The translations under genes and the position numbers were made by a program. A DNA stretch of 64,000 bases from an uncultured Opitutia bacterium (GTDB taxonomy: Bacteria; Verrucomicrobiota; Verrucomicrobiia; Opitutales; Opitutaceae), in assembly GCA_903834135.1 (NCBI GenBank), contig CAILHZ010000022.1:1-64000 (forward strand), in the 5' to 3' direction. Shown here in pieces: positions 18,448-31,403 of the stretch; the stretch's first letter is position 1, and each line of letters opens with the position of its first letter. Under the pieces are notes generated by a model. It made no database searches. It saw nothing but the letters and a program-made list of their open reading frames with translations, and was not told the DNA's origin.

Positions 18448-18990
18448 GTGAAGGATGACAGAGTCTTGATATCGCAGAGTCCTTTCTCGGACAATTCCCA
18501 GAGGGGTTTTACCCTGCTTGAAATACTCATGGCGCTTGCCGTGGTCGGTTTATTGTCCGCAGCCATCATCGGTTTTTCAACCCACTTACTCGCCGGAAAA
18601 CCAAGTACACCCGATGACGTGTTTTGGGAGGCTACTCAAGCGGCGCGTAAAGCGGCACTTGAATACGGAAAGTCTGAGAGGCTATCATTCGATGCTAAAA
18701 CCAAGACCTTTGTCATTACTGACGGAATTAATTCAAAAACACTTCAGGTTAAAAGTGGAGGAGATGATCTCGGAATTGATTTTATTTCTACGCAAACATC
18801 TTCCTCGTCCATGCTTATTGGAGGGGCACTTGTTCAATCTGGAGGCATGCCTTACGTTACCTTTTATAGCGATGGTACCTGCATTCCCTTCCAGGTCCAA
18901 GTAAGAACTAGGGGTGGTGCGCATATTCAAGGTATTGATCCTTGGACGTGTGCTCGCGTTCTTAACCGTCCGCCTAACGCTGGGTTTTAG
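18448..18990 (+). CDS. gspH: Type II secretion minor pseudopilin GspH-like
   Basis: 180 residues starting at GTG 18448. The leader ends QRG, followed by FTLLEILMALAVVGLLSAAI, a canonical prepilin N-terminal helix with Gly at -1 and Glu at +5. The rest is a beta-rich globular domain (FVITDGINSKTLQVK, PYVTFYSDGTCIPFQV) resembling GspH. It probably caps the pseudopilus together with I, J and K. It follows gspG by 19 bases and is followed by gspI after one base. Assignment to H rests on order and fold pattern. Confidence 0.8.
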   Translation: MKDDRVLISQSPFSDNSQRGFTLLEILMALAVVGLLSAAIIGFSTHLLAGKPSTPDDVFWEATQAARKAALEYGKSERLSFDAKTKTFVITDGINSKTLQVKSGGDDLGIDFISTQTSSSSMLIGGALVQSGGMPYVTFYSDGTCIPFQVQVRTRGGAHIQGIDPWTCARVLNRPPNAGF

Positions 18991-18991
18991 T

Positions 18992-19489
18992 ATGAAAGCG
19001 TCTTTCAAAAATGTAGCTAAAACACGGGCCTTCACACTTCTTGAAGTACTTGTTGCATTACTTATTTTTTCGTTAGGGGCAGTTGTTTTAGGCTCTGCGT
19101 ATCTAAATCTCTTAAATAGCTATGTTGCAGTGGGTCGCGGTACTGAATATCTGCAAGACATTGCTTTAGTGCGCCAGCAGTTAATGACGCAACCCGATCT
19201 TACTACTGCTCAAAATGGCGATGAGTTTGATACGCTTCAGATCGATCCAAATAAAGCTGTAGCGCACATAAAATGGAATGCGGCGATTGAGTCAGCAGGA
19301 ACAGCAGATTTATTTAATGTGACTCTAACTTGTGTGATATCGACAACGGATATTTCTACACCTACTAAGACAGTAATTCAGAATTTCACTCTTCTAAGAC
19401 CTACATGGTCAGATCCTACTGAACAGACTACGCTGCGTCAGGCTGCAGCAACACGCATCGGACAAATGCAAGGGACGATTCAGCAATGA
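18992..19489 (+). CDS. gspI: Type II secretion minor pseudopilin GspI-like
   Basis: 165 residues from ATG 18992. A longer in-frame start at 18914 would place the prepilin motif too deep and overlap gspH, so it is rejected. The leader MKASFKNVAKTRA is followed by FTLLEVLVALLIFSLGAVVL, with Glu5 and Ala rather than Gly at -1. Small globular domain. It overlaps gspJ by four bases (ATGA), which indicates translational coupling. GspI nucleates the pseudopilus tip with J and K. The letter assignment follows gene order and the short length. Confidence 0.8.
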   Translation: MKASFKNVAKTRAFTLLEVLVALLIFSLGAVVLGSAYLNLLNSYVAVGRGTEYLQDIALVRQQLMTQPDLTTAQNGDEFDTLQIDPNKAVAHIKWNAAIESAGTADLFNVTLTCVISTTDISTPTKTVIQNFTLLRPTWSDPTEQTTLRQAAATRIGQMQGTIQQ

Positions 19490-20166
19490 GAACTGATCGA
19501 TCTATAACTTTATCTAGTCAGAAAGCCAAAGAAGGTGGTTTTACATTAATTGAAATTCTTATCTCGTTAGTGCTTGTTGGGATGTTACTGGTTGGCCTCA
19601 ACACGTTTATTTTCTCAATGGGTGAGCTGTGGGGAAGAAATTCGGATGTCAGGCTTTTTGATCAACACGTTAATGCCGTTACTCGCTTTATTTCTGATAC
19701 ATTTCAAACTGCGACACTTCCTCCTAATGCACGTGCGAATGCTACTCCCATTGCGCCCGTACAAATAAGTCCAGCTAACGGAATTCCTGGCTATTACATT
19801 ACCTTCGATTTACCTGCGGGCTGTAGGATATTAAATTGGCCTGATCGGGCACTTCCTGAAGTGGTTTGTTCATTGCAGTTTCGTGAACATGAAGGGCTCT
19901 TTCTTTTGTGGCAGTCGCGTTTAGAAACGACCTTTGGTACAAATCAACCGCGTGAGGTTTTACTCACCCCGTATGTTTCTGCGATGAGCTATGACTATTT
20001 TGATTCTACGTTCAAGCGGTGGACTAATACGACTCAATATCAGAATGATGCCAGTGGAAACCCTGTAGCACCGCAGAGGCTTCAGTTTACGTTTAGTTAC
20101 GGAAAATTAATACGCCAGACAACGGTAACCATACCGCTATCATATCAAGGAGTGCCTAATCCGTAA
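19486..20166 (+). CDS. gspJ: Type II secretion minor pseudopilin GspJ-like
   Basis: 226 residues. The leader ends KEGG, then FTLIEILISLVLVGMLLVGL, a canonical prepilin helix with Gly at -1 and Glu5. The globular part has LFDQHVNAVTRFISDTFQ and PYVSAMSYDYFDSTFKRW, matching the GspJ pattern of a DxxF/W...RW segment near the end. It is coupled to gspI by an ATGA overlap and followed by gspK after one base. It forms part of the pseudopilus tip complex. Confidence 0.85.
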   Translation: MRTDRSITLSSQKAKEGGFTLIEILISLVLVGMLLVGLNTFIFSMGELWGRNSDVRLFDQHVNAVTRFISDTFQTATLPPNARANATPIAPVQISPANGIPGYYITFDLPAGCRILNWPDRALPEVVCSLQFREHEGLFLLWQSRLETTFGTNQPREVLLTPYVSAMSYDYFDSTFKRWTNTTQYQNDASGNPVAPQRLQFTFSYGKLIRQTTVTIPLSYQGVPNP

Positions 20167-20167
20167 T

Positions 20168-21376
20168 ATGGAGCGCATCTCTTTGAGTTCTAAGAAAACT
20201 AAGCAGGGATCGATTTTAATAATCGTTTTAGTTACGCTTATTTTCACAGCTACAGCTCTTGTTGCGTTTCTTGATAAGGCAAGTAATGACTTAATTGTAG
20301 AGACGCACCGCAGGACAGCAGATCGGTTGAGGCTCGATGCTTACTCTGCACTCAATGTAACATTAGCTGTGTTACAGGATTTTTATTTAGCGCAAAATAA
20401 TGCACTGCATTCCTCTAATGAAGGCTGGGGGGATCCAATTGGATGGTCAAACTGGGCACCTGTTGACGGCAATAAAATAGACGTAACTTTTCAGGATGAA
20501 AGTGGAAAAATTTCACTTATTAATACTAAGCAAACTGAGCTTAATCAGATGTTTTTAGCTTGGGGTATGACTCAAGACAATGCCGAGCAATTAACCGATG
20601 CGATTCTTTCGTGGAGTAAGAAAAATTATGTGCCTCAAATGGGACTAAGCCCAGATTACGAACAGATGACCTTGCCGTATAATGCACCGCTTAGGTCGCT
20701 TAGATCCTACAACGAACTCGCTGCAATGGATTTCGCAAAAGATATCCTTTTTGATGAGAACGGTCAGCCTAACTCCTACTGGTGGCAGTTTGTAAACGAT
20801 TTTTCGTTATATAATTATCAACAGCCCAATATTAATGCGCTCAATAACGACGTCCTGACTGGGTTAGGTCAATTCGATGTAAACACTATCCAGAACTTGT
20901 CTAATTACATGTCGGGCACAGGTGATTATAAGGTTACTACACCCTTAGGTGTTCAGTGGTTCAAGAACGAGACCGCCATTCGCAGTGTTTCAGGTCAAAT
21001 AGGTCAACCCCACCAGTTCACTACTACTATTTCTGCTCTTAAGATCCTAATCACCGTTCATGAGGGAACTTCATTATATCACCTATCGGCCGTTGTAGCC
21101 CCTAAAAATGGGGCAACAACTGTAGTTACTACCGCAACTGATGTGCGTAATGGTACGTCTAGCGATACAAGTGGTGAAACCTCAACAAATACTGGTCTTT
21201 CAGGAGGTAAAACATCTACCTCTAGGGCATCTTCGTCGACTCCTACGGCAAGTCAGACTGGCACAGCCACGACTAATTCAAATATCATGTTTCCTTTTAC
21301 GATCTTGGAAATTCTAGAAAATGATGCGATTCTAACGCCTCCACCGCCACCCCCACCGCCTCCCACTTCGATTTAA
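20168..21376 (+). CDS. gspK: Type II secretion GspK-like pseudopilin
   Basis: 402 residues. The leader MERISLSSKKTKQG precedes SILIIVLVTLIFTATALVAF, a prepilin helix lacking Glu5 as expected for GspK. GspK features are FQDESGKISLINTKQTELNQ (the D-x-GKxxLN element) and helix-hairpin-like DNAEQLTDAILSW. A Thr/Ser-rich stretch (about 320-370) and a C-terminal run of nine prolines (about 390-398) are additions. GspK caps the pseudopilus with I and J. The polyproline tail is unusual and might contact other machinery; that is a guess. Confidence 0.88.
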   Translation: MERISLSSKKTKQGSILIIVLVTLIFTATALVAFLDKASNDLIVETHRRTADRLRLDAYSALNVTLAVLQDFYLAQNNALHSSNEGWGDPIGWSNWAPVDGNKIDVTFQDESGKISLINTKQTELNQMFLAWGMTQDNAEQLTDAILSWSKKNYVPQMGLSPDYEQMTLPYNAPLRSLRSYNELAAMDFAKDILFDENGQPNSYWWQFVNDFSLYNYQQPNINALNNDVLTGLGQFDVNTIQNLSNYMSGTGDYKVTTPLGVQWFKNETAIRSVSGQIGQPHQFTTTISALKILITVHEGTSLYHLSAVVAPKNGATTVVTTATDVRNGTSSDTSGETSTNTGLSGGKTSTSRASSSTPTASQTGTATTNSNIMFPFTILEILENDAILTPPPPPPPPPTSI

Positions 21377-21391
21377 CCTATTTTATAGCTG

Positions 21392-22555
21392 ATGTGTGCA
21401 TCTCCCCTTGAAATTCTTCGCGCTGGACCACCGCCTCCTAGAACTGTGCTATTACCTGATGGACTGTTTTTTGTGCGTAGCATCGCAGTCAATCTTGATG
21501 GTGAGGGTTCTGAGGGGGTTTCTCATTTAGACCAGGTGGCTTCACAAGTAGAACTTGCGCTTGAGGCAACTTCGCCGTTTCCGCTTATCAATTTATATTA
21601 CGGACATTTTTGGCTGCCAGGTGCTTCTCATGCATTAGTTTATGCCTCTTATCGTAGGCGCTTTACTGCAGAACAAGCGCTAACATGGGCAGAGACAGAC
21701 TTCGTATGTCCCTCATTTATTGCATTAGCAGGTGCTAAAGTTGAGCCTGCAACAACTGTACTATTAACTTCACCTGAAGGAATCACTGCAATGCACTGGG
21801 GAACGCAAGTAGTCCCTACAAAGGTTCAATTTCAAGCTATAGCAGTTGATGCAACTGACGAGCAAAGATCGGTGATTAGAACAGAGCTATTACGAAAATT
21901 TGAAAGTCTCAAAGTAGTTGATGTGGCGACTGCACCAAGTGCTAGCTGGGGAAATACAGAAGGGGAGATTAATTATTCTTCAGAAGAACTTAATGCATGT
22001 CTTAGTGTAGATTTGTTAAAACATGCAGACGTTAGAGATAAAGCTGAACTTGCAGCCATTCAAAAAGCGAAAGCAAGAGATCGCATCCTCTGGAATGTTG
22101 TTGTTGGATCGGTCGCTTGCTTTGGTCTTTTAGCCCTCTTTGAATTGGCGCTTATTGCAGGAGGGTTTTGGCAAAATACTCGTCGCATTAAGCTCAATAT
22201 TCAGGCTCCCGTTGTAGCCGAGATAATGAATCGCCAGGAGATTGCTAATCGAATTAATGATCTTTCTACACGAAGGCTTTTACCAATAGAAATGGTGCAA
22301 GCTATCTCGCCTAAGAAAAAAGCGTATTCTATTTATTTCTCATCGGTTGCAACCAATGGCCTATATGGTGTGACTATTGAAGCGCAGACACCTAATGCAG
22401 GTGAAATTAAAAGTTATGAAAATGACTTACGAGGTCTTCCTTCATGTCAAAGTGTTGTGATCAAAAATACACAAAGTCGTAATAACATAACTACCTTCAC
22501 TTTAGTTGTTATGTTTATTCCTAATGCTCTTAAACCCAACGCACCTACGCCATGA
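21392..22555 (+). CDS. gspL: GspL/PilN-like inner-membrane assembly protein
   Basis: 387 residues with the layout of GspL: a cytoplasmic domain (about 1-230) of reduced actin-like type, a lysine/arginine-rich linker, one membrane helix (about 234-258, WNVVVGSVACFGLLALFELA), and a periplasmic ferredoxin-like domain (IEMVQAISPKKKAYSIYFSS, GVTIEAQTPN). Sequence similarity to known GspL is weak to my eye, so the call rests on topology and position between gspK and the GspM-like gene. It would recruit the ATPase GspE to the membrane. It overlaps the next gene by four bases. Confidence 0.7.
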   Translation: MCASPLEILRAGPPPPRTVLLPDGLFFVRSIAVNLDGEGSEGVSHLDQVASQVELALEATSPFPLINLYYGHFWLPGASHALVYASYRRRFTAEQALTWAETDFVCPSFIALAGAKVEPATTVLLTSPEGITAMHWGTQVVPTKVQFQAIAVDATDEQRSVIRTELLRKFESLKVVDVATAPSASWGNTEGEINYSSEELNACLSVDLLKHADVRDKAELAAIQKAKARDRILWNVVVGSVACFGLLALFELALIAGGFWQNTRRIKLNIQAPVVAEIMNRQEIANRINDLSTRRLLPIEMVQAISPKKKAYSIYFSSVATNGLYGVTIEAQTPNAGEIKSYENDLRGLPSCQSVVIKNTQSRNNITTFTLVVMFIPNALKPNAPTP

Positions 22556-23097
22556 TTAGAACACTCAAAGGTTTGTTTCTCACGCGGGCACTTAGAGAGA
22601 AATTGCTGCTTTTAGTCCTGCTTTTAATTGGCGTAGCTTATTGGTTTTCAAGCTTCTTGGGGCGTTCAGCTATCTTTATGTCAGAGCAGTCGCACACCAC
22701 TAAGTCTCTTGCCGATCAGGCTAGGTGGATAGCGAGTCGCGCATCAGTACAAAAGCAGGCTGAAAAAGCAGCTGCAGGCTTTAGATCAGATGAGACTCTT
22801 GATGCTACTCGGCTCATTGCTGCGCTCCAAAATATTGCATCAGCTTCGGGCCTTAATAATCCTAATATTAATGGACTTCAGGATTTAAGTGTAGAGCAAT
22901 TTGCGGTGCATCCGGTGCAGTTTACGGTGACCAAAGTTTCGTTTGAGTCCTTGGTAAGCTTTGTATCTGCAGTCCAGCTTCGGAATCCTTACATTGGAAT
23001 TGAGCAATTCCAAGTGATGGCGGATAAAGCCAATCCTTCGGTGTTAAACGCTTCGATGAAGATTTCTTCAGTCGAAATTACAAAGGGTATTCCTTAA
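22552..23097 (+). CDS. gspM: GspM/PilO-like inner-membrane protein
   Basis: 181 residues: a short cytoplasmic tail, one membrane helix (about 18-35, LLLLVLLLIGVAYWFSSF), a helical stretch (about 40-80), then a small ferredoxin-like domain (FTVTKVSFESLVSFVSAVQL, YIGIEQFQVMADKANPSVLN). This is the GspM/PilO build. It partners the preceding GspL-like protein in the assembly platform. It is the last gene of the operon. Its TAA overlaps the TAA of the opposing DUF4266 gene in a shared TTAA, so there is no room for a separate terminator. Confidence 0.72.
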   Translation: MIRTLKGLFLTRALREKLLLLVLLLIGVAYWFSSFLGRSAIFMSEQSHTTKSLADQARWIASRASVQKQAEKAAAGFRSDETLDATRLIAALQNIASASGLNNPNINGLQDLSVEQFAVHPVQFTVTKVSFESLVSFVSAVQLRNPYIGIEQFQVMADKANPSVLNASMKISSVEITKGIP

Positions 23098-23330
23098 TTA
23101 CAGCCGCAGCCTGCGCCTCCTACACCTGCGCCTCCAGTTGCTGCTTCACGAGAAAAGTAAATGTGTTCAGCTAGTTGATTACCCAAAGGGTCACGATCTG
23201 GACTCATTGTGTAATCTGCTAAGGTGCCTCTTTCCCAGGGCTGTACTCTAACAGTTTGAAAGTTAGCGCACCCTGTAAATAGGCTAGTCACTGCACAAAG
23301 ACAAAGTGCGATTAGAAATGTTTTTTTCAT
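23094..23330 (-). CDS. DUF4266 lipoprotein
   Basis: 78 residues. A lipoprotein signal ends LFTGC, giving a lipidated Cys near residue 20. The mature part is VRVQPWERGTLADYTMSPDR then LAEHIYFSREAATGG and a Gly/Cys tail GVGGAGCGCN, the pattern I associate with DUF4266. It travels with DUF3570, ApbE and a TlpA thioredoxin, as here. Function is unknown. The closing cysteines could bind metal or be redox-active (inference). It is the last gene of a four-gene minus-strand set starting at 26003. Confidence 0.85.
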   Translation of the reverse strand: MKKTFLIALCLCAVTSLFTGCANFQTVRVQPWERGTLADYTMSPDRDPLGNQLAEHIYFSREAATGGAGVGGAGCGCN

Positions 23331-23344
23331 GACTTTTTTAGGAA

Positions 23345-23857
23345 TTAATTTTTTTCAACAAGGAGTGCAGTAATTTCACTTCTTAGTTCAGGCTCTGTTT
23401 TTGAACTGTGAAATCCTTTGTGTATAAATCGTACAAGGCCATTTTTCCCAATAAGATAACTGGTTGGCATCATAGGTACATTTACTTGTTTAACAAGTGA
23501 CTGATTTACGTCTCTAACTGTAAAAAACCCGGGAGGTGATTTACTTAAAAAGTTAGAATAGGCTGAGGCGACTGTATCTACACTGACTGCAATTAAGACA
23601 AAGCCTTCTGATGCGTAGTCTTTTTGAATTTGATTATATGCAGGGAACGAAGCTTTGCAGGGAGCGCACCACGAGGCCCAGAAATCAACGAGTACAACTT
23701 TATTATTAATTTCAGGTAGCGGGCTTGGGAGAGAAGCACTCAGAGATGGAAATTTATCACCAACATGCGTATCTGCATGCAGTAGGCCTGTTAAACAAGT
23801 GCACAGACTTAAACTTAGGATTATTTTAATGAATGAATAACGCATATTAGGAGGCAA
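23345..23857 (-). CDS. TlpA-type exported thioredoxin
   Basis: 170 residues. A signal peptide (hydrophobic segment about 11-27, ending LLHA) precedes a thioredoxin-fold domain with FWASWCAPCKASFP, the CxxC active site WCAPC, a TlpA-like SVDTVASAYSNFL, and cis-proline MMPTSYLIG. Expected role: envelope thiol-disulfide exchange. Within this set it may keep the cysteines of the DUF4266 lipoprotein reduced. Met5 (23845) is an equally good start and would avoid the 11-base overlap with the ApbE gene. Confidence 0.9.
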   Translation of the reverse strand: MPPNMRYSFIKIILSLSLCTCLTGLLHADTHVGDKFPSLSASLPSPLPEINNKVVLVDFWASWCAPCKASFPAYNQIQKDYASEGFVLIAVSVDTVASAYSNFLSKSPPGFFTVRDVNQSLVKQVNVPMMPTSYLIGKNGLVRFIHKGFHSSKTEPELRSEITALLVEKN

Positions 23858-24839
23858 GGTGGGTAAAGAAAGCGCGTGTTTGAGCCCGAGAATTTTCAGT
23901 CAACAGAAGGCCTTCGGCTCCAGGGAAGGATTGTATAAAGTCTATTCCCTTAGGAATTCCTAGAATAAAAGAACTTGTCGATAAAGCACCTGCCATAAGA
24001 CAGCTCGATGCAATAACTGTTGATTGCATGCAACCATGTGCTACTGGCCATCCTGTTCGGGGATCTATAATATGGCCGTAGCGTTTACCTTGGTAGGTAA
24101 AGTTACGTATGTAATCCCCCGAAGAAGCTATTCCTTTACTGCCTTGGATTCCTAGACTTGAGGAATGGCTTCCTGGCTTTGAGGGATTCTCTAGTCCGAT
24201 ATGCCAGGCAGGTCTTCCTGGAGGTAGTCCAAGAGTACGTATGTCGTGACCAAAGTCTATTAAGGCATTAGTGATACCATTTTGGAGTGCTATTTGAGCA
24301 ACCTGATCTACTGCATACTCTTTTCCGAAACCGCCAAAATCTAAAGCCATACCAACTTCAGGTAGCATTATCTTACCTGGAGATCTTTTTACTTTATTCC
24401 AACCCACCTTCGCTAATGCTTCCGCTATATTTGCCTTAGAAGGGATCGTAGGTGTTTCAGATTTCCAGTTCCACAGTTTGATTAAGGGTAGTGTCGTGGG
24501 ATCTAAAATACCCTGTGTTGTAAAATGTAATGAGTCGCAGAGCTTAAGCATAAGCTCCATTTCAAGATCTATATCTACCCAACTAACTCCAGCTGCCTGG
24601 TTAATTTTACTCAGTAAGCTCTCAGGTTTAAAACGAGAGTATTTTGATTCGAAAGATTGAACCCACTGCACTGCTTGTTTCTCAAAGGTTTTTGCTTGGG
24701 CCTCATCACTTGGTGCTGCGTACTGTATTTCACACGGAGTCCCCATTGCGTGGAAAGCTACTTTGCGCAGAGGCAACGCTGCACTTGAGTGCGTTACTTC
24801 AGAAACCTCTTTGCGAATTGTTTGAGCAACTATGGCCAT
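23847..24839 (-). CDS. apbE: ApbE-family FAD:protein FMN transferase
   Basis: Transfers FMN from FAD to a Thr/Ser of a target protein. 330 residues with ApbE landmarks AMGTPCEI (about 31-38), GVSWVDID, LDFGGFGKEYAVD (166-178), NALIDFGHDIRTLG, ENPSKPG, GIASSGDYIRNF and YGHIIDPRTGWPV (254-266). In the C-terminal metal site the usual D-A-L-x-T is MAGALST, so Gly284 stands where Asp is expected. No signal peptide or lipobox is visible, although most ApbE proteins are exported. It lies 6 bases after the DUF3570 gene, the likely target. Catalytic competence is uncertain. Confidence 0.9.
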   Translation of the reverse strand: MAIVAQTIRKEVSEVTHSSAALPLRKVAFHAMGTPCEIQYAAPSDEAQAKTFEKQAVQWVQSFESKYSRFKPESLLSKINQAAGVSWVDIDLEMELMLKLCDSLHFTTQGILDPTTLPLIKLWNWKSETPTIPSKANIAEALAKVGWNKVKRSPGKIMLPEVGMALDFGGFGKEYAVDQVAQIALQNGITNALIDFGHDIRTLGLPPGRPAWHIGLENPSKPGSHSSSLGIQGSKGIASSGDYIRNFTYQGKRYGHIIDPRTGWPVAHGCMQSTVIASSCLMAGALSTSSFILGIPKGIDFIQSFPGAEGLLLTENSRAQTRAFFTHLAS

Positions 24840-24845
24840 CTTAAA

Positions 24846-26003
24846 TTACCAGGTAATCTTACTGCCTAAGGTTACTGTTCTTGCGCGGTAGTATGCGCTT
24901 TGTGAAGTTACGTTGTCAGTGCCTCGCTGCTTATAACCATCGATACTCGTATAGAGTTGAAGATGGTCCGTTGCATTATAGACTACTTTGAAACCGAAAT
25001 CGTAGGAGTTTAAAGCCGATAGACGTGCATCTGAAGAATAGAAAGGACCGTTAGGATTTGGAATACGAGTAGGTGTAATACCTACACCATCCATTTGATA
25101 ATGATAGAAAGAGGCTGCGGTTTGATTATAGAATCTAAAGTTAGGTCTAAGGATTAGTTTATCGCCTACTTTTTGAAACCAAAGCATCTCAAGGGTATTT
25201 GAGGTTATGTTAAAGGAATCGTGATATAAACGGTAGTTGATTTCTGCTGCTCCCTTAAATTTTAAGATAGCATGATGCAAAGACAAATAAAGGTCTCCCT
25301 TGGTTTTTTCATTTGGTCTACTTTCAGAATATTCGAGTGGTACGTATACACCTGGAAGTAACTGAACATCTAACTGCACCACTTTATATTGATCATTTAG
25401 AAAGCCTGTTTCACGACTCCACGTAATATTTGCTGTGAAGCTTGTTTGAGGATCGATGAGTTGAGTTACTCCAACAATCACATCGTTTGAGACCTTTCTT
25501 AGCCAAGCTGTTTTGAAGAAGACCTTAGCGGTATCGTCAGAACCTGAGGTGCCTAGAAGTAGAGTTGTATTTTTTTGATTGAAATCCCAAAGCGTATTAA
25601 CAGCCCATCCATTGGACATGTAGTCGTGTTCGATACTTCGTGAGATACCTAAATCAACATTAAGGTCAGTAAATTGACGTGAAAAATCTGCATTCCATGC
25701 ATGTCTACGATCATGCATCATCGCTAGATCAACTTGGTTGCTACCTGGTGCTGCGGGTAGTCCTGTAGGGGTTGCGCCTGCAATCGTATCCACAACACCT
25801 CCTAACTTAAAGTGCATATCTGTCCCAAAGTCTTGATTGATAAGAGCTGACTGAGTCTCGACTCCGATCCTTCCTCCGAAATCGACATACTTAGCATATT
25901 GGTAATCAAGGCTATTCTCCGCACGTACGTCCCGCAGCTGTAGCACGCTTATCAATCCGGCTACCAAATAAGGAGACAAACGGGAGGCTGTAGATAAACG
26001 CAT
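24846..26003 (-). CDS. DUF3570 outer-membrane barrel-like protein with flavinylation-like motif
   Basis: 385 residues: a signal peptide ending near VRA (about 28), then a beta-strand-rich protein with alternating aromatic strands (HHAILKFKGAAEINYRLYHD, LEMLWFQKVGDKLILRPNF) and a closing RTVTLGSKITW with terminal Trp, as in outer-membrane barrels. Residues 72-78 read DTIAGAT, followed by PTG. This resembles the D-x-x-(S/T)-G-A-(T/S) site that ApbE modifies in NqrC/RnfG. It is first in the set DUF3570-apbE-tlpA-DUF4266. Family recognised; function unknown. Confidence 0.85.
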   Translation of the reverse strand: MRLSTASRLSPYLVAGLISVLQLRDVRAENSLDYQYAKYVDFGGRIGVETQSALINQDFGTDMHFKLGGVVDTIAGATPTGLPAAPGSNQVDLAMMHDRRHAWNADFSRQFTDLNVDLGISRSIEHDYMSNGWAVNTLWDFNQKNTTLLLGTSGSDDTAKVFFKTAWLRKVSNDVIVGVTQLIDPQTSFTANITWSRETGFLNDQYKVVQLDVQLLPGVYVPLEYSESRPNEKTKGDLYLSLHHAILKFKGAAEINYRLYHDSFNITSNTLEMLWFQKVGDKLILRPNFRFYNQTAASFYHYQMDGVGITPTRIPNPNGPFYSSDARLSALNSYDFGFKVVYNATDHLQLYTSIDGYKQRGTDNVTSQSAYYRARTVTLGSKITW

Positions 26004-26162: not shown

Positions 26163-28343
26163 TTGAAGACTGATAATTTAGCTGCCAATATAACAATATT
26201 CAAATTGTTTGCGTCTTTGCGTACTCGTCTGCCATGGCTAAATTTGCCGGTTACGTTTCTTGTGATGTTTCTGCAAAAGACTCCAGTGCTTAATCTTATA
26301 TCACTTGGAGATGAGGCAGTACCTTCCTTTCCTGCGACATCAATTCTAAAGTCTGCGTTTGTCGCAGTAGCTTCACTTGGATCAGTGCATACGCTTGTGG
26401 GTGCTTCTGGAATTAATTCCAGTCCGTCCTCACTTACAGCTACTGTTGGGGTACCCTCTAATGGAGCTGTATTTACAGTCTCAGGTACAATAGCAGATCC
26501 ATCTTCCTGGAGAATTGAGAGTGGCGATATTCCTCCTGGTATGAATTTTTCTACACTTACAGGCCCTGGTGTAATCAATGTAGTTTCATCAAACGGAGAA
26601 GCTTACCTGCAAGGGACTCCGACTACTGCAGGAATTTATACTTTCACAATGATTGCCTATTGGTACCCCGGGGGTACGGGTCTATCCACTAATGCAAAAA
26701 GCTACACAGTAACTGTAAATCCTGGACCTGTGGTTGCTCCAGTTATTGTTTCTTCACCACCTTCAACTCAAACAATTACGGTTGGCTCTTCGCTGAGTTT
26801 AGCGGTTTCGGTTAGTGGAGCTGCTGCGACTACATATCAATGGAAATTTAATGGCGTTAATATTAATGGCGCTACTCAATCACTCTACAGTTTATCACCT
26901 GTGACTGCAGCTAACGCGGGTACATACACCTGCAATGTTACAAATGCAGGTGGTACTGTCACATCATCACCAGCAGTAGTGGTTGTTGAAGGGCAGCCCG
27001 TAATAAGCGCTTCTCCTCCCGCTTCACAGTCTGTGAGTGTAGGCTCTAATGTGAGTTTATCTGTAGCTGTGAGTGGCTCTGTATCAGTCAACTACCAGTG
27101 GCAGTTTAATGGGGTAAATATTTTTGGAGCGACTTCATCAACACTTACACTGAATTCGGTCACCGCTGCAAATATGGGTACGTATGTCTGTATTGTATCT
27201 AATCTTGCTGGAATTGCTACGAGTACACCTGCTGTTTTGAGTCTCGTGACTACCATGCCTAAGGTAACAACTAATCCTTCCTCTCAGACAATCGCTACAG
27301 GAAGTACCGTTGTTTTCTCTACTTCAATTTCTTCGCCTTTAGGAGCTTCTTATCAGTGGCAGTTTAATGGTGTTCCAATCGCAGGTGCTACTGCAGCAAC
27401 CTATTTAATCCAAGCAGCGAGTAGTTCAAAAGCTGGAACCTATACTTGCGTAATTACAAACTCATCTGGTTCTGTAACAACACAACCTGCTATACTTACA
27501 CTTGTTTCATCATCCAATCCAGGGAGGCTTGTAAATCTCTCTGTTTTAACGATGGATGGTCCTGGGTCTCAATTATTGACCATCGGTTTTGTTAACGGTG
27601 GATTAGCAACGACTGGCTCAGAGCAGTTGCTCATTAGGGCAACTGGGCCGGCGCTTTCTACGTTTGGTGTATCTAATGTATTAGCCGATCCTAAACTCAC
27701 GATATTTCAAGGCAGTAGCGTTATTGCTACGAATGACAATTGGGGATCAACCACTGCTAATATCACCTCAGTTAATGCAGCAAATAGTGCGACGGGTGCT
27801 TTCGCTTTATCGCCTACTACAAGTCTTGATGCTGCTGTCGTTCAAACTTTACCCAGTGGTGGGTATACTATTCAAGTTGCAGGCAATGGAACAGGTATAG
27901 GTAATGCCCTAGCTGAGGTGTATGATAACACATCTAGCTACACAAGTGCATCCCCAAGACTTATTAATTTATCCTGTATGCAACAAGTACCAGCTGCTGG
28001 AATGCTTACAGCTGGTTTTGCTATTAGTGGTGCTACATCTAAATCCGTATTAATCAGAGTTTCTGGTCCAACGTTAGCTTCATATGGAGTTGTGGGTACA
28101 ATGCCTGATCCGCAGCTTACTGTGTATACAGGATCTACCATAATCGCTACAAATTCGAGTTGGTTAGGCGATGCCTCTATTACTGCTGCGAATACAGCTA
28201 CTGGAGCATTTCAGTTTATGAATACTAGCAGTAAAGATTCAGCGGTAGTTATGACACTTGCGCCAGGATCCTACACTGTTCAGGCCAATAGTGTTTCTGG
28301 AAGTACTGGTGTAACAATGATCGAAGTGTACGAAGTGCCTTAA
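26163..28343 (+). CDS. Secreted Ig-like repeat surface protein
   Basis: Up to 726 residues. After a putative-Ig-type segment (SSWRIESGDIPPGMNFS, 120-200) there are three Ig-like repeats of about 90 residues, each with a Q-W-x-F-N-G-V strand and an A-G-T-Y-x-C strand. Two copies of a Verrucomicrobia C-terminal module follow (LLIRATGPALSTFGV and VLIRVSGPTLASYGV, each with DPxLTx and an Asn-Trp or Ser-Trp). The start is uncertain: TTG at 26163 opens the frame and ATG 26265 is the first ATG. The hydrophobic stretch SAFVAVASLGSVHTLVGA looks like the export signal but lies unusually deep. It may be a substrate of the flanking secretion genes (inference). Confidence 0.8.
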   Translation: MKTDNLAANITIFKLFASLRTRLPWLNLPVTFLVMFLQKTPVLNLISLGDEAVPSFPATSILKSAFVAVASLGSVHTLVGASGINSSPSSLTATVGVPSNGAVFTVSGTIADPSSWRIESGDIPPGMNFSTLTGPGVINVVSSNGEAYLQGTPTTAGIYTFTMIAYWYPGGTGLSTNAKSYTVTVNPGPVVAPVIVSSPPSTQTITVGSSLSLAVSVSGAAATTYQWKFNGVNINGATQSLYSLSPVTAANAGTYTCNVTNAGGTVTSSPAVVVVEGQPVISASPPASQSVSVGSNVSLSVAVSGSVSVNYQWQFNGVNIFGATSSTLTLNSVTAANMGTYVCIVSNLAGIATSTPAVLSLVTTMPKVTTNPSSQTIATGSTVVFSTSISSPLGASYQWQFNGVPIAGATAATYLIQAASSSKAGTYTCVITNSSGSVTTQPAILTLVSSSNPGRLVNLSVLTMDGPGSQLLTIGFVNGGLATTGSEQLLIRATGPALSTFGVSNVLADPKLTIFQGSSVIATNDNWGSTTANITSVNAANSATGAFALSPTTSLDAAVVQTLPSGGYTIQVAGNGTGIGNALAEVYDNTSSYTSASPRLINLSCMQQVPAAGMLTAGFAISGATSKSVLIRVSGPTLASYGVVGTMPDPQLTVYTGSTIIATNSSWLGDASITAANTATGAFQFMNTSSKDSAVVMTLAPGSYTVQANSVSGSTGVTMIEVYEVP

Positions 28344-28375: not shown

Positions 28376-29659
28376 TTACATCTTAAAGCTCGCGCTTACT
28401 TGGAATACAGCACTAACGATCGCAAATGCGATAAAACCAACAAAGACGAATACTCCCATTAGCACTGCACTAGCTATTACGCTAGTGAACATGCTGAGCT
28501 GGTTAGAAATGATTTTTTGATAGGCCTTGGCGATTTCTCGTAAACTAGGAACTATATTTCCTGTATTTTCGCCCACTGCTAGACGATCCAGCACTAAGTC
28601 AGGAAAACATTTTGTTCTCCCGATTGCCATCGATAGTGCTTCACCTTCAAGTACGCGTGCAGTTGCCTCTTTGAACTTTGCCCTGTGAACGCGATTTGAG
28701 ATTTGGCGTTCTGTCATCTTTAAAGCTTCTGAAGCAGTAATCCCGTTTTCTAAAAGAACGTACAAAGTCTGACTAAAAGAGAGTACCGTTTGTGAAACTG
28801 AAAAAGGTCCTATTAAGGGAATGTTTAACATCCAGCCGTCAGTAGCTACACGTCCTGCATCGGTAGCACGCCATTTCCAGAAACTAGCCATAAATAAAAT
28901 ACCAGCTAGGATTATAAATACGCCGTAGTGTAGGGCAAAGGTAGAAAAGCCAATCAATATTTTTGTAGAAACAGGCATTGATCCACCGAGCGAATCAAGA
29001 AGTGATTGTAGTCGTGGTAGTAAAAAGAACAGAAAGAAAAGAATTACACCAAAGGCAACAAACACCATGAATACGGGGTAAGCGAGTGCAGTAAGCAATT
29101 GGCGGCGTAATTCTTTTTGCTCAGTTAAGTGAGCAATAATGCGTGAAACGGTGTCGTTGAGAGATCCCGTGGCTTCACCTGCTTGAATAAGATTAAGCGT
29201 AGCTTCATCGAAGACTGCAGGAAAGTCACCCATAGCGCGTGAAAGCGGAGCACCCTCACTGATCCTATTCCATAAACCGTTGCAGAGTTCTTTAAGGCGC
29301 GGCTCTTTAATACGTAATGAAAGTAAACGTACTGCTTCACCCGCTGAAAGACCACTCGAGGTTAGGTCGAATAGTGATTCAAGAAAAGGTAAGCGTTCGT
29401 TACTGCGTGGGGTAGAATCACTACTTGATGAAAATTTTAAATCAAAGAATCCAGGCTTTGTTGAGGTGGGTGTACTTTTCCCGGTTTGTTTCTTAGGCTG
29501 CTTATCTTTTGCATTATCAGCTACTGATTCAGTGATTGTAGATACTTGAAGCCCGCGTGAACTAAGCATGCGCATAGCATCACGACGACTTGGTGCATCA
29601 ATATCGCCCCTACGAGCTAAGCCAGCTTGGTCTTTCGCAGAATAAGTAAAACGTGCCAT
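28376..29659 (-). CDS. gspF: Type II secretion inner-membrane protein GspF
   Basis: 427 residues from ATG 29659, chosen because MARFTYSAKDQAGLARRGDI is the classic GspF start. A start 13 codons upstream would run into gspE. Two T2SSF domains (about 120-240 and 320-420) each with hydrophobic helices: VFVAFGVILFFLFFLLPRL, FIILAGILFMASFW and VLMGVFVFVGFIAFAIVSAV. RDAMRMLSSRG and GEATGSL, GENTGNI are family signatures. It forms the assembly platform with GspL and GspM. It follows gspE by one base. The insertion QPKKQTGKSTPTSTKPG near 70-90 is a lineage-specific linker. Confidence 0.94.
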   Translation of the reverse strand: MARFTYSAKDQAGLARRGDIDAPSRRDAMRMLSSRGLQVSTITESVADNAKDKQPKKQTGKSTPTSTKPGFFDLKFSSSSDSTPRSNERLPFLESLFDLTSSGLSAGEAVRLLSLRIKEPRLKELCNGLWNRISEGAPLSRAMGDFPAVFDEATLNLIQAGEATGSLNDTVSRIIAHLTEQKELRRQLLTALAYPVFMVFVAFGVILFFLFFLLPRLQSLLDSLGGSMPVSTKILIGFSTFALHYGVFIILAGILFMASFWKWRATDAGRVATDGWMLNIPLIGPFSVSQTVLSFSQTLYVLLENGITASEALKMTERQISNRVHRAKFKEATARVLEGEALSMAIGRTKCFPDLVLDRLAVGENTGNIVPSLREIAKAYQKIISNQLSMFTSVIASAVLMGVFVFVGFIAFAIVSAVFQVSASFKM

Positions 29660-29660
29660 A

Positions 29661-31403
29661 TTACTTATCTGAAACAGTGATGACGCGTAACACTTCATCG
29701 AGTGTAGTTGCGCCAGCTTTTACTTTTTCCCATCCACTTTGACCTAATGTACGCATGCCTTGTTTACGTGCTGCGTCAGCCAAGGTGCGGGTACTCTCAC
29801 GTTTTAAGACAAGCTCATGAAGATCGTCGTTTAATCTAAAAATTTCGAATAGGCCAATACGTCCACGGTAGCCTGTATTACGGCAGCGGTCACAGCCAAC
29901 AGGAGTTTTGAGTGCCGTAATTAAGTCAGCTTCAGCTTCATCACAGCCTAAGATGGCTAGTGACTCCTTGAGCTTAATTTTATTAATAGGTGCACTTCCA
30001 GCACACTCACCGCAAAGTCGTCTTACGAGACGTTGAGCAATGACTAGCTCAATTGCAGAGGCGACTAAGAAAGGCTCTATTCCCATATCTACCAAGCGCG
30101 TGATAGCACCAGGTGCGTCGTTGGTATGCAGTGTTGAGAAAACTAAGTGACCTGTAAGAGATGCACGAATTGCGATTTCTGCAGTATCACGGTCACGAAT
30201 TTCACCGACCATGATGACGTCAGGATCTTGCCGCAGTACATGTCTTAAAGCATCAGCAAAGGTAAGGCCAATTTCAGGTCTTACTTGCATTTGAACAACA
30301 CCGGGCACTTCGTACTCTATTGGATCTTCAATTGTAATAATACGAAGATCAGTTGCGTTAATTTTACGCAGAAAAGCGTTCAGCGAAGTACTCTTACCCG
30401 AACCGGTAGGTCCTGTGACTAAAATAATTCCGTGTGGATAATCTAGCACGTTAACAATCTGAGCCTGTTCTTCAGGACTCATACCGATTTTATCCATCGT
30501 ATACGCTTCTTTTTTCTTATTAAGTAAACGAAGAGAAACAGATTCAGCGTAAATTGTAGGAATCGTAGAAACACGGATATCTAAGGTTGTGCCAGCACCT
30601 TTGAAATTAATACGGCCATCTTGAGGTAAGCGTTTTTCTGAAATATTAAGACGCGCCATGATTTTTAGGCGTGAAATAATAGCATCTTGAAAACGAATTA
30701 AATTTTCAGGTAAAGGTACTGGAACTAAAAGTCCATCTACACGGTAACGAATCCTTAATTGGCCTTCTTGAGGCTCGAAATGGATATCCGTAGCTTGGTC
30801 GTTAACAGCTTGGCTAATTACATCAGTAACGAAGCGAACCACAGCAGCATCTTCATCAACCACTTCTTCTGCTTGATGTTGCTCTTCAGGGGCTATGTAG
30901 CCGTCATCGCTATCTTCTAACGAGCCAGAACCAACACCAAAGTTTTCGATGATCAGTTGGTGAACTCTCTCTGCTACTGCAAGGTGCCATACAAGGGGAC
31001 GCGTTGTAAAGGTACGCATCCAATCATCCATGGAGTTGTCGGGTATCCAAGCACTCGCGAGATGAAGTGGCTTTAATGCAAGTTCAGCTGCATCTAATTT
31101 TTCAGTTCCTTGGCGACTTGAGTCACTTGGATCTAATTTCTTAATTGGAATGATCTGAAATTCATGCACCAAGCGTGCAGGTAGAATACCGCGCGCATCT
31201 GGATCGGTTTCCAGATTTAATGCGATATCAAGTTTAACAAGACCGGCAATTTCAGTCAGTAAATCTGCTTCTGATTTAGCTAGTGCTATGGCAAGTGCTG
31301 TAAGCTTCCCTCCTCGTGGTGCATCAGTAAACGCTTGGCGTTGCTCATCGTTAAGACGCGACGCCAGTGCTGCTGGCAGAGTATCCTCTATTAGTGCAGC
31401 CAT
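29661..31403 (-). CDS. gspE: Type II secretion ATPase GspE
   Basis: 580-residue GspE/PulE ATPase that powers pseudopilus assembly. It has an N-terminal GspE-type domain, then AVNDQATDIHFEPQ and RYRVDG, Walker A GPTGSGKST (331-339), the Asp box ITIEDPIEY, Walker B VIMVGEIRDRDTAEIA (397-412), the His box SLTGHLVFSTLHTND, and a four-cysteine zinc site (Cys464, 467, 504, 507; last pair CDRCRNTGYRGR). Standard length. Order on the minus strand is gspD, gspE, gspF with gaps of 1-3 bases, so the three are co-transcribed. It should dock on the GspL-like protein of the other operon. Confidence 0.97.
   Translation of the reverse strand: MAALIEDTLPAALASRLNDEQRQAFTDAPRGGKLTALAIALAKSEADLLTEIAGLVKLDIALNLETDPDARGILPARLVHEFQIIPIKKLDPSDSSRQGTEKLDAAELALKPLHLASAWIPDNSMDDWMRTFTTRPLVWHLAVAERVHQLIIENFGVGSGSLEDSDDGYIAPEEQHQAEEVVDEDAAVVRFVTDVISQAVNDQATDIHFEPQEGQLRIRYRVDGLLVPVPLPENLIRFQDAIISRLKIMARLNISEKRLPQDGRINFKGAGTTLDIRVSTIPTIYAESVSLRLLNKKKEAYTMDKIGMSPEEQAQIVNVLDYPHGIILVTGPTGSGKSTSLNAFLRKINATDLRIITIEDPIEYEVPGVVQMQVRPEIGLTFADALRHVLRQDPDVIMVGEIRDRDTAEIAIRASLTGHLVFSTLHTNDAPGAITRLVDMGIEPFLVASAIELVIAQRLVRRLCGECAGSAPINKIKLKESLAILGCDEAEADLITALKTPVGCDRCRNTGYRGRIGLFEIFRLNDDLHELVLKRESTRTLADAARKQGMRTLGQSGWEKVKAGATTLDEVLRVITVSDK

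Follow-up and report, generated by a model that had tools for sequence, protein, structure and literature searches.

Which proteins make up a gene set that combines a DUF3570 protein with a flavin transferase, and on which side of the inner membrane is the flavin attached? The question is raised by a 64,000-nucleotide stretch of DNA from an uncultured Opitutia bacterium (assembly GCA_903834135.1, contig CAILHZ010000022.1, positions 1 to 64,000), analysed here as a whole and called the window. According to the open reading frame (ORF) list and the DNA, four minus-strand genes at 23094-26003 encode, in this order, DUF3570, ApbE, a TlpA-like thioredoxin and a DUF4266 lipoprotein. An initial annotation made from the sequence alone had recognised this set, and we found all ORFs in place and confirmed each family with Pfam. 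The four-gene set is already known, and the ApbE, DUF3570 and DUF4266 genes adjoin in the window as in the DUF3570 clusters of Meheust et al. (eLife 2021, PMC8238504), the only publication in which a literature text search found DUF3570 and DUF4266 named. The additions are a relaxed flavinylation motif, a class of ApbE without a leader, and a fifth family. The initial annotation lacked two points: no signal peptide can be recognised in the ApbE, and the divergent neighbour of the operon is part of the set. Taken together, we read the locus as a cell-envelope redox module based on flavin, with a cytosolic ApbE and two flavinylated envelope proteins, and assign this whole scheme a probability of about 0.55.

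The fifth family is that of the neighbour, an immunoglobulin (Ig)-domain protein, which belongs to the DUF3570 set as a dedicated partner and is genetically linked to it. We defined the family by the profile (A1) of an N-terminal region shared by 28 protein copies in 24 of 47 sources (46 loci and the window); the unrelated L057, joined by single-linkage clustering, was excluded. Among 387 genomes of the window's phylum, 42 of which have DUF3570, A1 matched 25 at E < 1e-15, and DUF3570 is present in all 25; two further matches were weak (G075, E 0.0026; G202, E 0.008). As the genomes are related, the following counts of co-occurrence are not counts of independent events: in the window's family, the partner was found in 19 of 19 DUF3570-positive genomes and, as a strong match, in 0 of 18 DUF3570-negative ones (the weakly matching G075 among them), the mixed genera g5, g6 and g8 included, while elsewhere in the class it accompanied DUF3570 in 6 of 7 genomes. 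As a further test, we searched 61 genomes of the family, including 40 new ones unused for profile building. Fifteen of the 40 had both proteins (weakest partner E 1.4e-12) and 23 had neither; a single genome had only DUF3570 (G681, 87% complete), and another had only the partner (G669, 81% complete, which has an ApbE).

The position of the gene was also followed. Of 36 strong copies, 28 are less than 4 kb from DUF3570, three are at 4-7 kb and four are elsewhere; the last (G351) is on a contig that continues a broken-off operon. In most relatives among the 24 sources that carry the family, the Ig gene follows the operon closely and in the same direction. The window copy is divergent and separated from DUF3570 by 159 bases. 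L264 has the gene within the operon, where it stands between those of ApbE and DUF3570, and L274 has it immediately before DUF3570 in the same orientation. The co-occurrence in 387 + 40 genomes and the placement in L264 and L274 led us to reject the notion of an accidental neighbour.

The shared N-terminal region, about 75 residues long, contains two hydrophobic stretches: the first is followed by LLQRTP and a linker, the second by LGAx[H/D/N]xx[A/S]GAT. It had no credible Pfam or NCBIfam match in any of the 28 members. In the window copy it is followed by Ig domains (three Ig_3 stretches). At the end of some Ig partners (L038:7939-10965, L060:564-3353), a Gly-rich tail is followed by a hydrophobic stretch and then by Arg residues, an arrangement that we take to resemble C-terminal sorting signals, while others end differently. 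Literature searches, which did not extend to subscription journals or supplementary files, yielded no published mention of the fifth partner; in the main texts of PMC8238504 and PMC11334425, neither "immunoglobulin" nor "Verrucomicrob" occurs.

The predicted ApbE substrate of the operon is the DUF3570 protein (PF12094, 195 bits against a cut-off of 25). The initial annotation had seen in it the heptapeptide DTIAGAT, an ApbE motif D-x-x-[S/T]-G-A-[S/T] with Ala replacing S/T, and the codons indeed read so: all fixed positions except the fourth are present. The window protein carries one motif, not two. To follow the site further, we used a second set of 274 genomes from the class that includes G387, the Paraglaciecola genome in which L004 lies; 71 of the 274 have DUF3570. 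Wide flanks were taken around DUF3570 at 44 phylum-set loci other than the window and at 40 loci in 38 second-set genomes. The resulting alignment holds 83 DUF3570 proteins, the window copy included, and omits the weak DUF3570-like L051, the broken gene of L076, the multi-motif proteins of about 900 residues in L167 and L174, and fragments shorter than 330 residues.

The motif proved conserved in DUF3570 proteins beside apbE, the check that the initial annotation had proposed. Among the 83 proteins, the first position is Asp in 67, Gly is kept in 69, Ala in 72, and the acceptor is S or T in 80 (T 41, S 39). The form [ASTV]GA[ST] accounts for 61 sites, spelled SGAT (17), AGAT (12), SGAS (12), TGAS (10), TGAT (8) or VGAT (2); the remainder are SSAS (9), near forms (10) and three with no aligned motif, which have one elsewhere (DAVSGAT in L199 and L201, DSISGAS in L205). 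The motif is also kept at DUF3570 loci without an adjoining ApbE, such as L045 and L069, yet their genomes encode ApbE elsewhere: in G283, a leaderless operon-type ApbE lies on a different contig and a further one some 7 kb from DUF3570 on the same contig, and G375 has one beside its other DUF3570. Given the conservation in the 83 proteins, a chance occurrence of the motif was rejected. The same conservation indicates that Ala is probably tolerated at the fourth position and that this AGAT variant, with a single site and Ala where the published consensus has S/T, would carry flavin mononucleotide (FMN). That the Ala variant instead marks flavinylation lost in this clade, with an operon that is decaying or works by thiols only, would fit the S/T of the published consensus and a genome of the same genus (G686) that keeps ApbE while DUF3570 was not detected; we regard it as quite improbable, as AGAT is common to 12 of the 83 proteins with G, A and T kept, and the window ApbE aligns nearly full-length to solved enzymes.

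A second AGAT was found in 6 of 46 DUF3570 proteins, within a long Pro/Ser-rich insertion of the motif loop (L042, L054, L055, L056, L071, L081), with near forms in L041, L079 and L082. These are loci where the Ig partner was not found, so the second site may be in cis instead. The DUF3570 proteins of about 900 residues (L167:5491-8244, L174:3863-6550) have two or three candidate motifs each.

Two lines support the view that DUF3570 is an outer-membrane barrel. The last residue is aromatic (F, W or Y) in 63 of the 83 proteins, and Foldseek searches with an AlphaFold2 model built from three sequences gave weak matches: the best 50 of 494 are, by title, nearly all outer-membrane barrels or complexes, with E values among these 50 from 1.8e-4 to 8e-3 (the best 1.8e-4, all others 1e-3 or worse). 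When strands of the model are counted back from the C-terminus, the motif loop and the other long, variable loops come out on one side. Its length has a standard deviation (SD) of 33, compared with mostly about 1 or less for the short turns (exceptions 4.8 and 2.1), although two loops on the long-loop side are themselves short and invariant. By the usual rule for long loops, the FMN loop would be on the outer face or at the mouth of the barrel.

The ApbE of the operon (PF02424, 246.8 bits, above the curated cut-off) aligns with solved ApbE structures over residues 31-322. A hydrophobicity check revealed neither the export signal nor the lipobox typical of bacterial ApbE: the N-terminus, MAIVAQTIRKEV, has no hydrophobic stretch, and an in-frame stop is only two codons before the ATG. 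For other loci, a leader was scored when an 11-residue window reached a mean Kyte-Doolittle value of at least 2.0 before the first strand. By this crude test, which misses 7 of 44 DUF4266 and 11 of 46 DUF3570 leaders (37 and 35 reach the threshold), 60 of 69 ApbEs at DUF3570 loci are without a leader and nine have a hydrophobic one; the ApbE of L194, with an N-terminus beyond the sampled stretch, was left out, reducing the set from 70 to 69. This implies flavinylation before export. Seven of the nine leader-bearing ApbEs are beside an SSAS DUF3570, one is beside a TAAS one, and the ninth (L077, 2.05) is marginal, while none of the 60 leaderless ApbEs is beside an SSAS DUF3570. This clear split by motif class suggests that there are two classes of DUF3570 system, which seem to flavinylate inside and outside the cell, respectively; the split is not stated in the accessible portions of PMC8238504, PMC11334425 and PMC12052999. 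The loci with SSAS, or TSAS (L200), instead of SGAS are L047-L050, L197, L198, L200, L202 and L204, and the adjoining ApbE has a hydrophobic leader in L047-L050, L197, L202 and L204.

Most ApbEs are apparently secreted, and the studied ones are typically lipoproteins, according to the accessible part of PMC12052999. This would suit an ApbE that reaches the periplasm by another route, or whose true start was missed, and that flavinylates DUF3570 there as in the textbook case. We consider this unlikely in view of the two codons available upstream of the ATG, the lack of a hydrophobic stretch before the first strand in the 60 linked ApbEs, and the precedent of a cytosolic Klebsiella ApbE acting on a soluble fumarate reductase (PMC12052999, same part).

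Is the Ig protein a second ApbE substrate? We counted its motif in 60 distinct copies from all sampled loci and the window, after dropping one truncated duplicate. GA[TS] is present in 58 and AA[TS] in two, and the acceptor is T in 57 and S in three. The first position is H (30), D (19), N (9) or Q (2), and the fourth A (42), S (11), T (4) or V (3). In 22 of 40 Ig/DUF3570 pairs, the residue before Gly is identical in both partners, compared with 13.3 expected from shuffling (p 0.00015, uncorrected for relatedness); in two of the pairs the partners come from different loci, 5-7 kb apart, of a single genome, and pairs involving L061, L077 or L275 were left out. In particular, wherever the Ig protein has S or T before the Gly, its DUF3570 partner has S (9/9), and V is paired with V in two related genomes. 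What speaks for the Ig protein as an ApbE substrate is that G and T hardly vary and that its fourth position tends to match that of DUF3570; we judge that its being flavinylated is close to an even bet, if slightly under one. GA[TS] could also be a signal-peptidase I site (AxA) that ends an unusually long, conserved export signal, in which case the protein would be a surface partner or adhesin with no flavin. The fourth position (A/S/T/V) and the last-but-one A match such a site, and a short hydrophobic stretch after K/R lies just before the motif. On the other hand, a peptidase site requires neither the Gly before Ala nor T or S as the next residue, and the fourth position covaries with that of the DUF3570 partner; moreover, strong Ig copies are confined to module-bearing genomes, with the exception of G669 (ApbE, no detected DUF3570). 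We treat the peptidase site as a serious possibility, though short of even, and a third possibility, that the motif is neither, takes the remaining probability.

The presumed thiol arm consists of the other two proteins of the operon. The thioredoxin matches Thioredoxin_8 (61.9 bits) and Redoxin (57 bits) above their cut-offs and PF13899 (14.8 bits) below its cut-off of 27; ResA is the best NCBIfam match, but is below its cut-off. The DUF4266 protein (PF14086, 79.2 bits) has the C-terminus GVGGAGCGCN. Both this ending and the CxxC (CAPC) site of the thioredoxin are as initially annotated, and CGC with one or two more residues closes all 86 DUF4266 proteins examined.

These parts can be arranged into the tentative scheme introduced above, which we hold slightly more likely than not. 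To its boldest version, in which a leaderless ApbE would flavinylate both the barrel loop and the Ig protein in the cytosol before export, yielding a flavin relay at the cell surface, we give less than an even chance. First, before Sec exports the DUF3570 precursor or as it does so, the operon ApbE would move FMN from flavin adenine dinucleotide (FAD) to Thr78 of this precursor, presumably in the cytosol because the enzyme has no leader. DUF3570 would then enter the outer membrane as a beta-barrel, with the FMN loop at its outer face or mouth. Electrons from DsbD may pass to the CAPC protein, on to the CGC tail of DUF4266 and to the barrel FMN; the single DsbD_TM match of the window genome is on another contig, outside the operon cluster. 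The Ig motif, [H/D/N]xx[ASTV]GA[TS], would be a second ApbE site, giving two flavins on two envelope proteins, and electrons could be handed to or through the Ig protein. To our knowledge, there is no earlier example of flavinylation before export to the outer membrane.

Several observations weigh against this scheme, besides the crudeness of the leader test. The partner is lacking in all 16 DUF3570-positive phylum genomes outside the class, and in G234 inside it. The fourth-position Ala of DUF3570 lies outside the published [S/T] consensus, and the Ig motif has His at the Asp position in 30 of 60 copies and Ala at the fourth in 42; a signal-peptidase I site (AGA before T) would suit these letters as well. 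In the leader test, L056 (2.19 in a 9-residue window) and L077 are borderline. Three genomes (G686, G668, G700) retain ApbE with neither DUF3570 nor the partner detected. The DUF3570 model is poor (mean pLDDT 43.7), and the single-sequence model of the Ig N-terminus is poorer (39.4) and was not used.

The published system bears on the same points, within the part of PMC8238504 that was accessible. The initial annotation had known of no tested function; however, flavinylation of the Chlorobium luteolum DUF3570 by its own ApbE has already been demonstrated, and the Ser of both sites had to be replaced to abolish it (Meheust et al., 2021, PMC8238504). The assay used signal-peptide-truncated proteins in E. 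coli with most of the DUF3570 in the pellet, which suggests that export is not needed. That study lists such clusters, of the same four families as the window, describes 316 clusters without DsbD as well, and calls the function of the DUF3570 system uncertain. Its accessible part thus agrees with, and supports, the initial suggestion of a redox system in the outer membrane that bears flavin and has a thiol arm. The window differs in having one site rather than two, AGAT rather than [S/T]GA[S/T], a TlpA-type rather than a PF13899 thioredoxin, and an Ig-domain fifth partner, which that part of the paper does not name.

According to the accessible part of PMC12052999, ApbE likewise places FMN on the last Thr/Ser of D-x-x-[S/T]-G-A-[S/T] in NqrC/RnfG (FMN_bind) and NqrB/RnfD, although the folds and complexes of these proteins differ from those of DUF3570. 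An Asp-to-Ala change in the motif mattered little, whereas replacing the acceptor Thr abolished flavinylation; the section on motif mutants is silent on Ala at the fourth position (PMC12052999). The ApbE of Klebsiella pneumoniae is likewise without a signal peptide and cytosolic, but its fumarate reductase substrate is a soluble cytosolic protein, while the predicted substrate in the window is exported to the outer membrane. A profile search of the window genome, 94% complete, found one DUF3570 and two ApbEs and gave no match to FMN_bind or DUF2271 (NqrB/RnfD were not searched for). Therefore, DUF3570 is the sole one of these known substrate families found there.

Table 1. Features of the DUF3570 operon and its divergent partner in the window.
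Feature	Position	Strand	Basis
DUF3570 protein, 385 aa; predicted outer-membrane beta-barrel and predicted ApbE substrate	24846..26003	-	PF12094; operon conserved in relatives; weak Foldseek matches
Probable signal peptide of DUF3570, residues 1-28, ending DVRA (cleavage by eye)	25920..26003	-	Sequence
Predicted flavinylation site DTIAGAT, residues 72-78, acceptor Thr78	25770..25790	-	Sequence; column conservation in 83 proteins
ApbE flavin transferase, 330 aa, no recognisable signal peptide	23847..24839	-	PF02424; alignment to solved ApbE; leaderless N-terminus
TlpA/ResA-like thioredoxin with leader; ORF listed from TTG, ATG at 23845 the likely start	23345..23857	-	Thioredoxin_8, Redoxin
CAPC active site of the thioredoxin	23657..23668	-	Sequence
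DUF4266 lipoprotein, 78 aa, lipobox TGC	23094..23330	-	PF14086
Terminal C-G-C of DUF4266	23100..23108	-	Sequence
Fifth partner, Ig-domain protein (ORF from TTG) with undescribed conserved N-terminal region	26163..28343	+	Three Ig_3 stretches; family tied to the DUF3570 operon
Conserved N-terminal region of the fifth partner, LQKTP ... SLGSVHTLVGAS	26202..26426	+	Profile A1, E 1.4e-23 (the window copy is a row of A1)
ApbE-like motif HTLVGAS, residues 76-82, candidate acceptor Ser82	26388..26408	+	Sequence; family motif counts

The operon is flanked by type II secretion/pilus-like genes, at 18914-23097 on the plus strand and 28376-31403 on the minus strand. They include T2SSF and T2SSE above the cut-off, K just below it, a weak M-like match and two N_methyl proteins. 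GspL/M-like genes, judged by reading, adjoin DUF3570 in several relatives (for example L039, L061, L262, L267, L268, L270, L272, L273). Given these neighbours, a type II-like machine may export the Ig partner. The ApbEs retained with neither DUF3570 nor the partner detected are of the leaderless type (L257 in G686:C11, L258 in G668:C1, L259 in G700:C112), and that of L257, from the window's genus, adjoins GspL-like genes, possibly a remnant. Recurrent neighbours in L044, L045, L077, L267 and L272, again identified by reading and not all present at each locus, are a response regulator, secreted IEGRVALP-type proteins, sensor-like proteins and SGTLDLEG-type proteins. Naming a terminal electron acceptor from the gene neighbourhood was rejected.

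A leaderless ApbE together with an exported substrate makes flavinylation before export directly and cheaply testable, and such flavinylation, if true, would remove the need to export FAD, as the flavin would be attached before the membrane is crossed. Tolerance of the fourth-position Ala, if true, would widen the motif for predicting ApbE substrates from [ST]GA[ST] to [ASTV]GA[ST], and the N-terminal region of the Ig protein, if flavinylated, would be a new class of ApbE substrate. The co-inherited Ig partner offers a first handle on what the DUF3570 system touches outside the cell.

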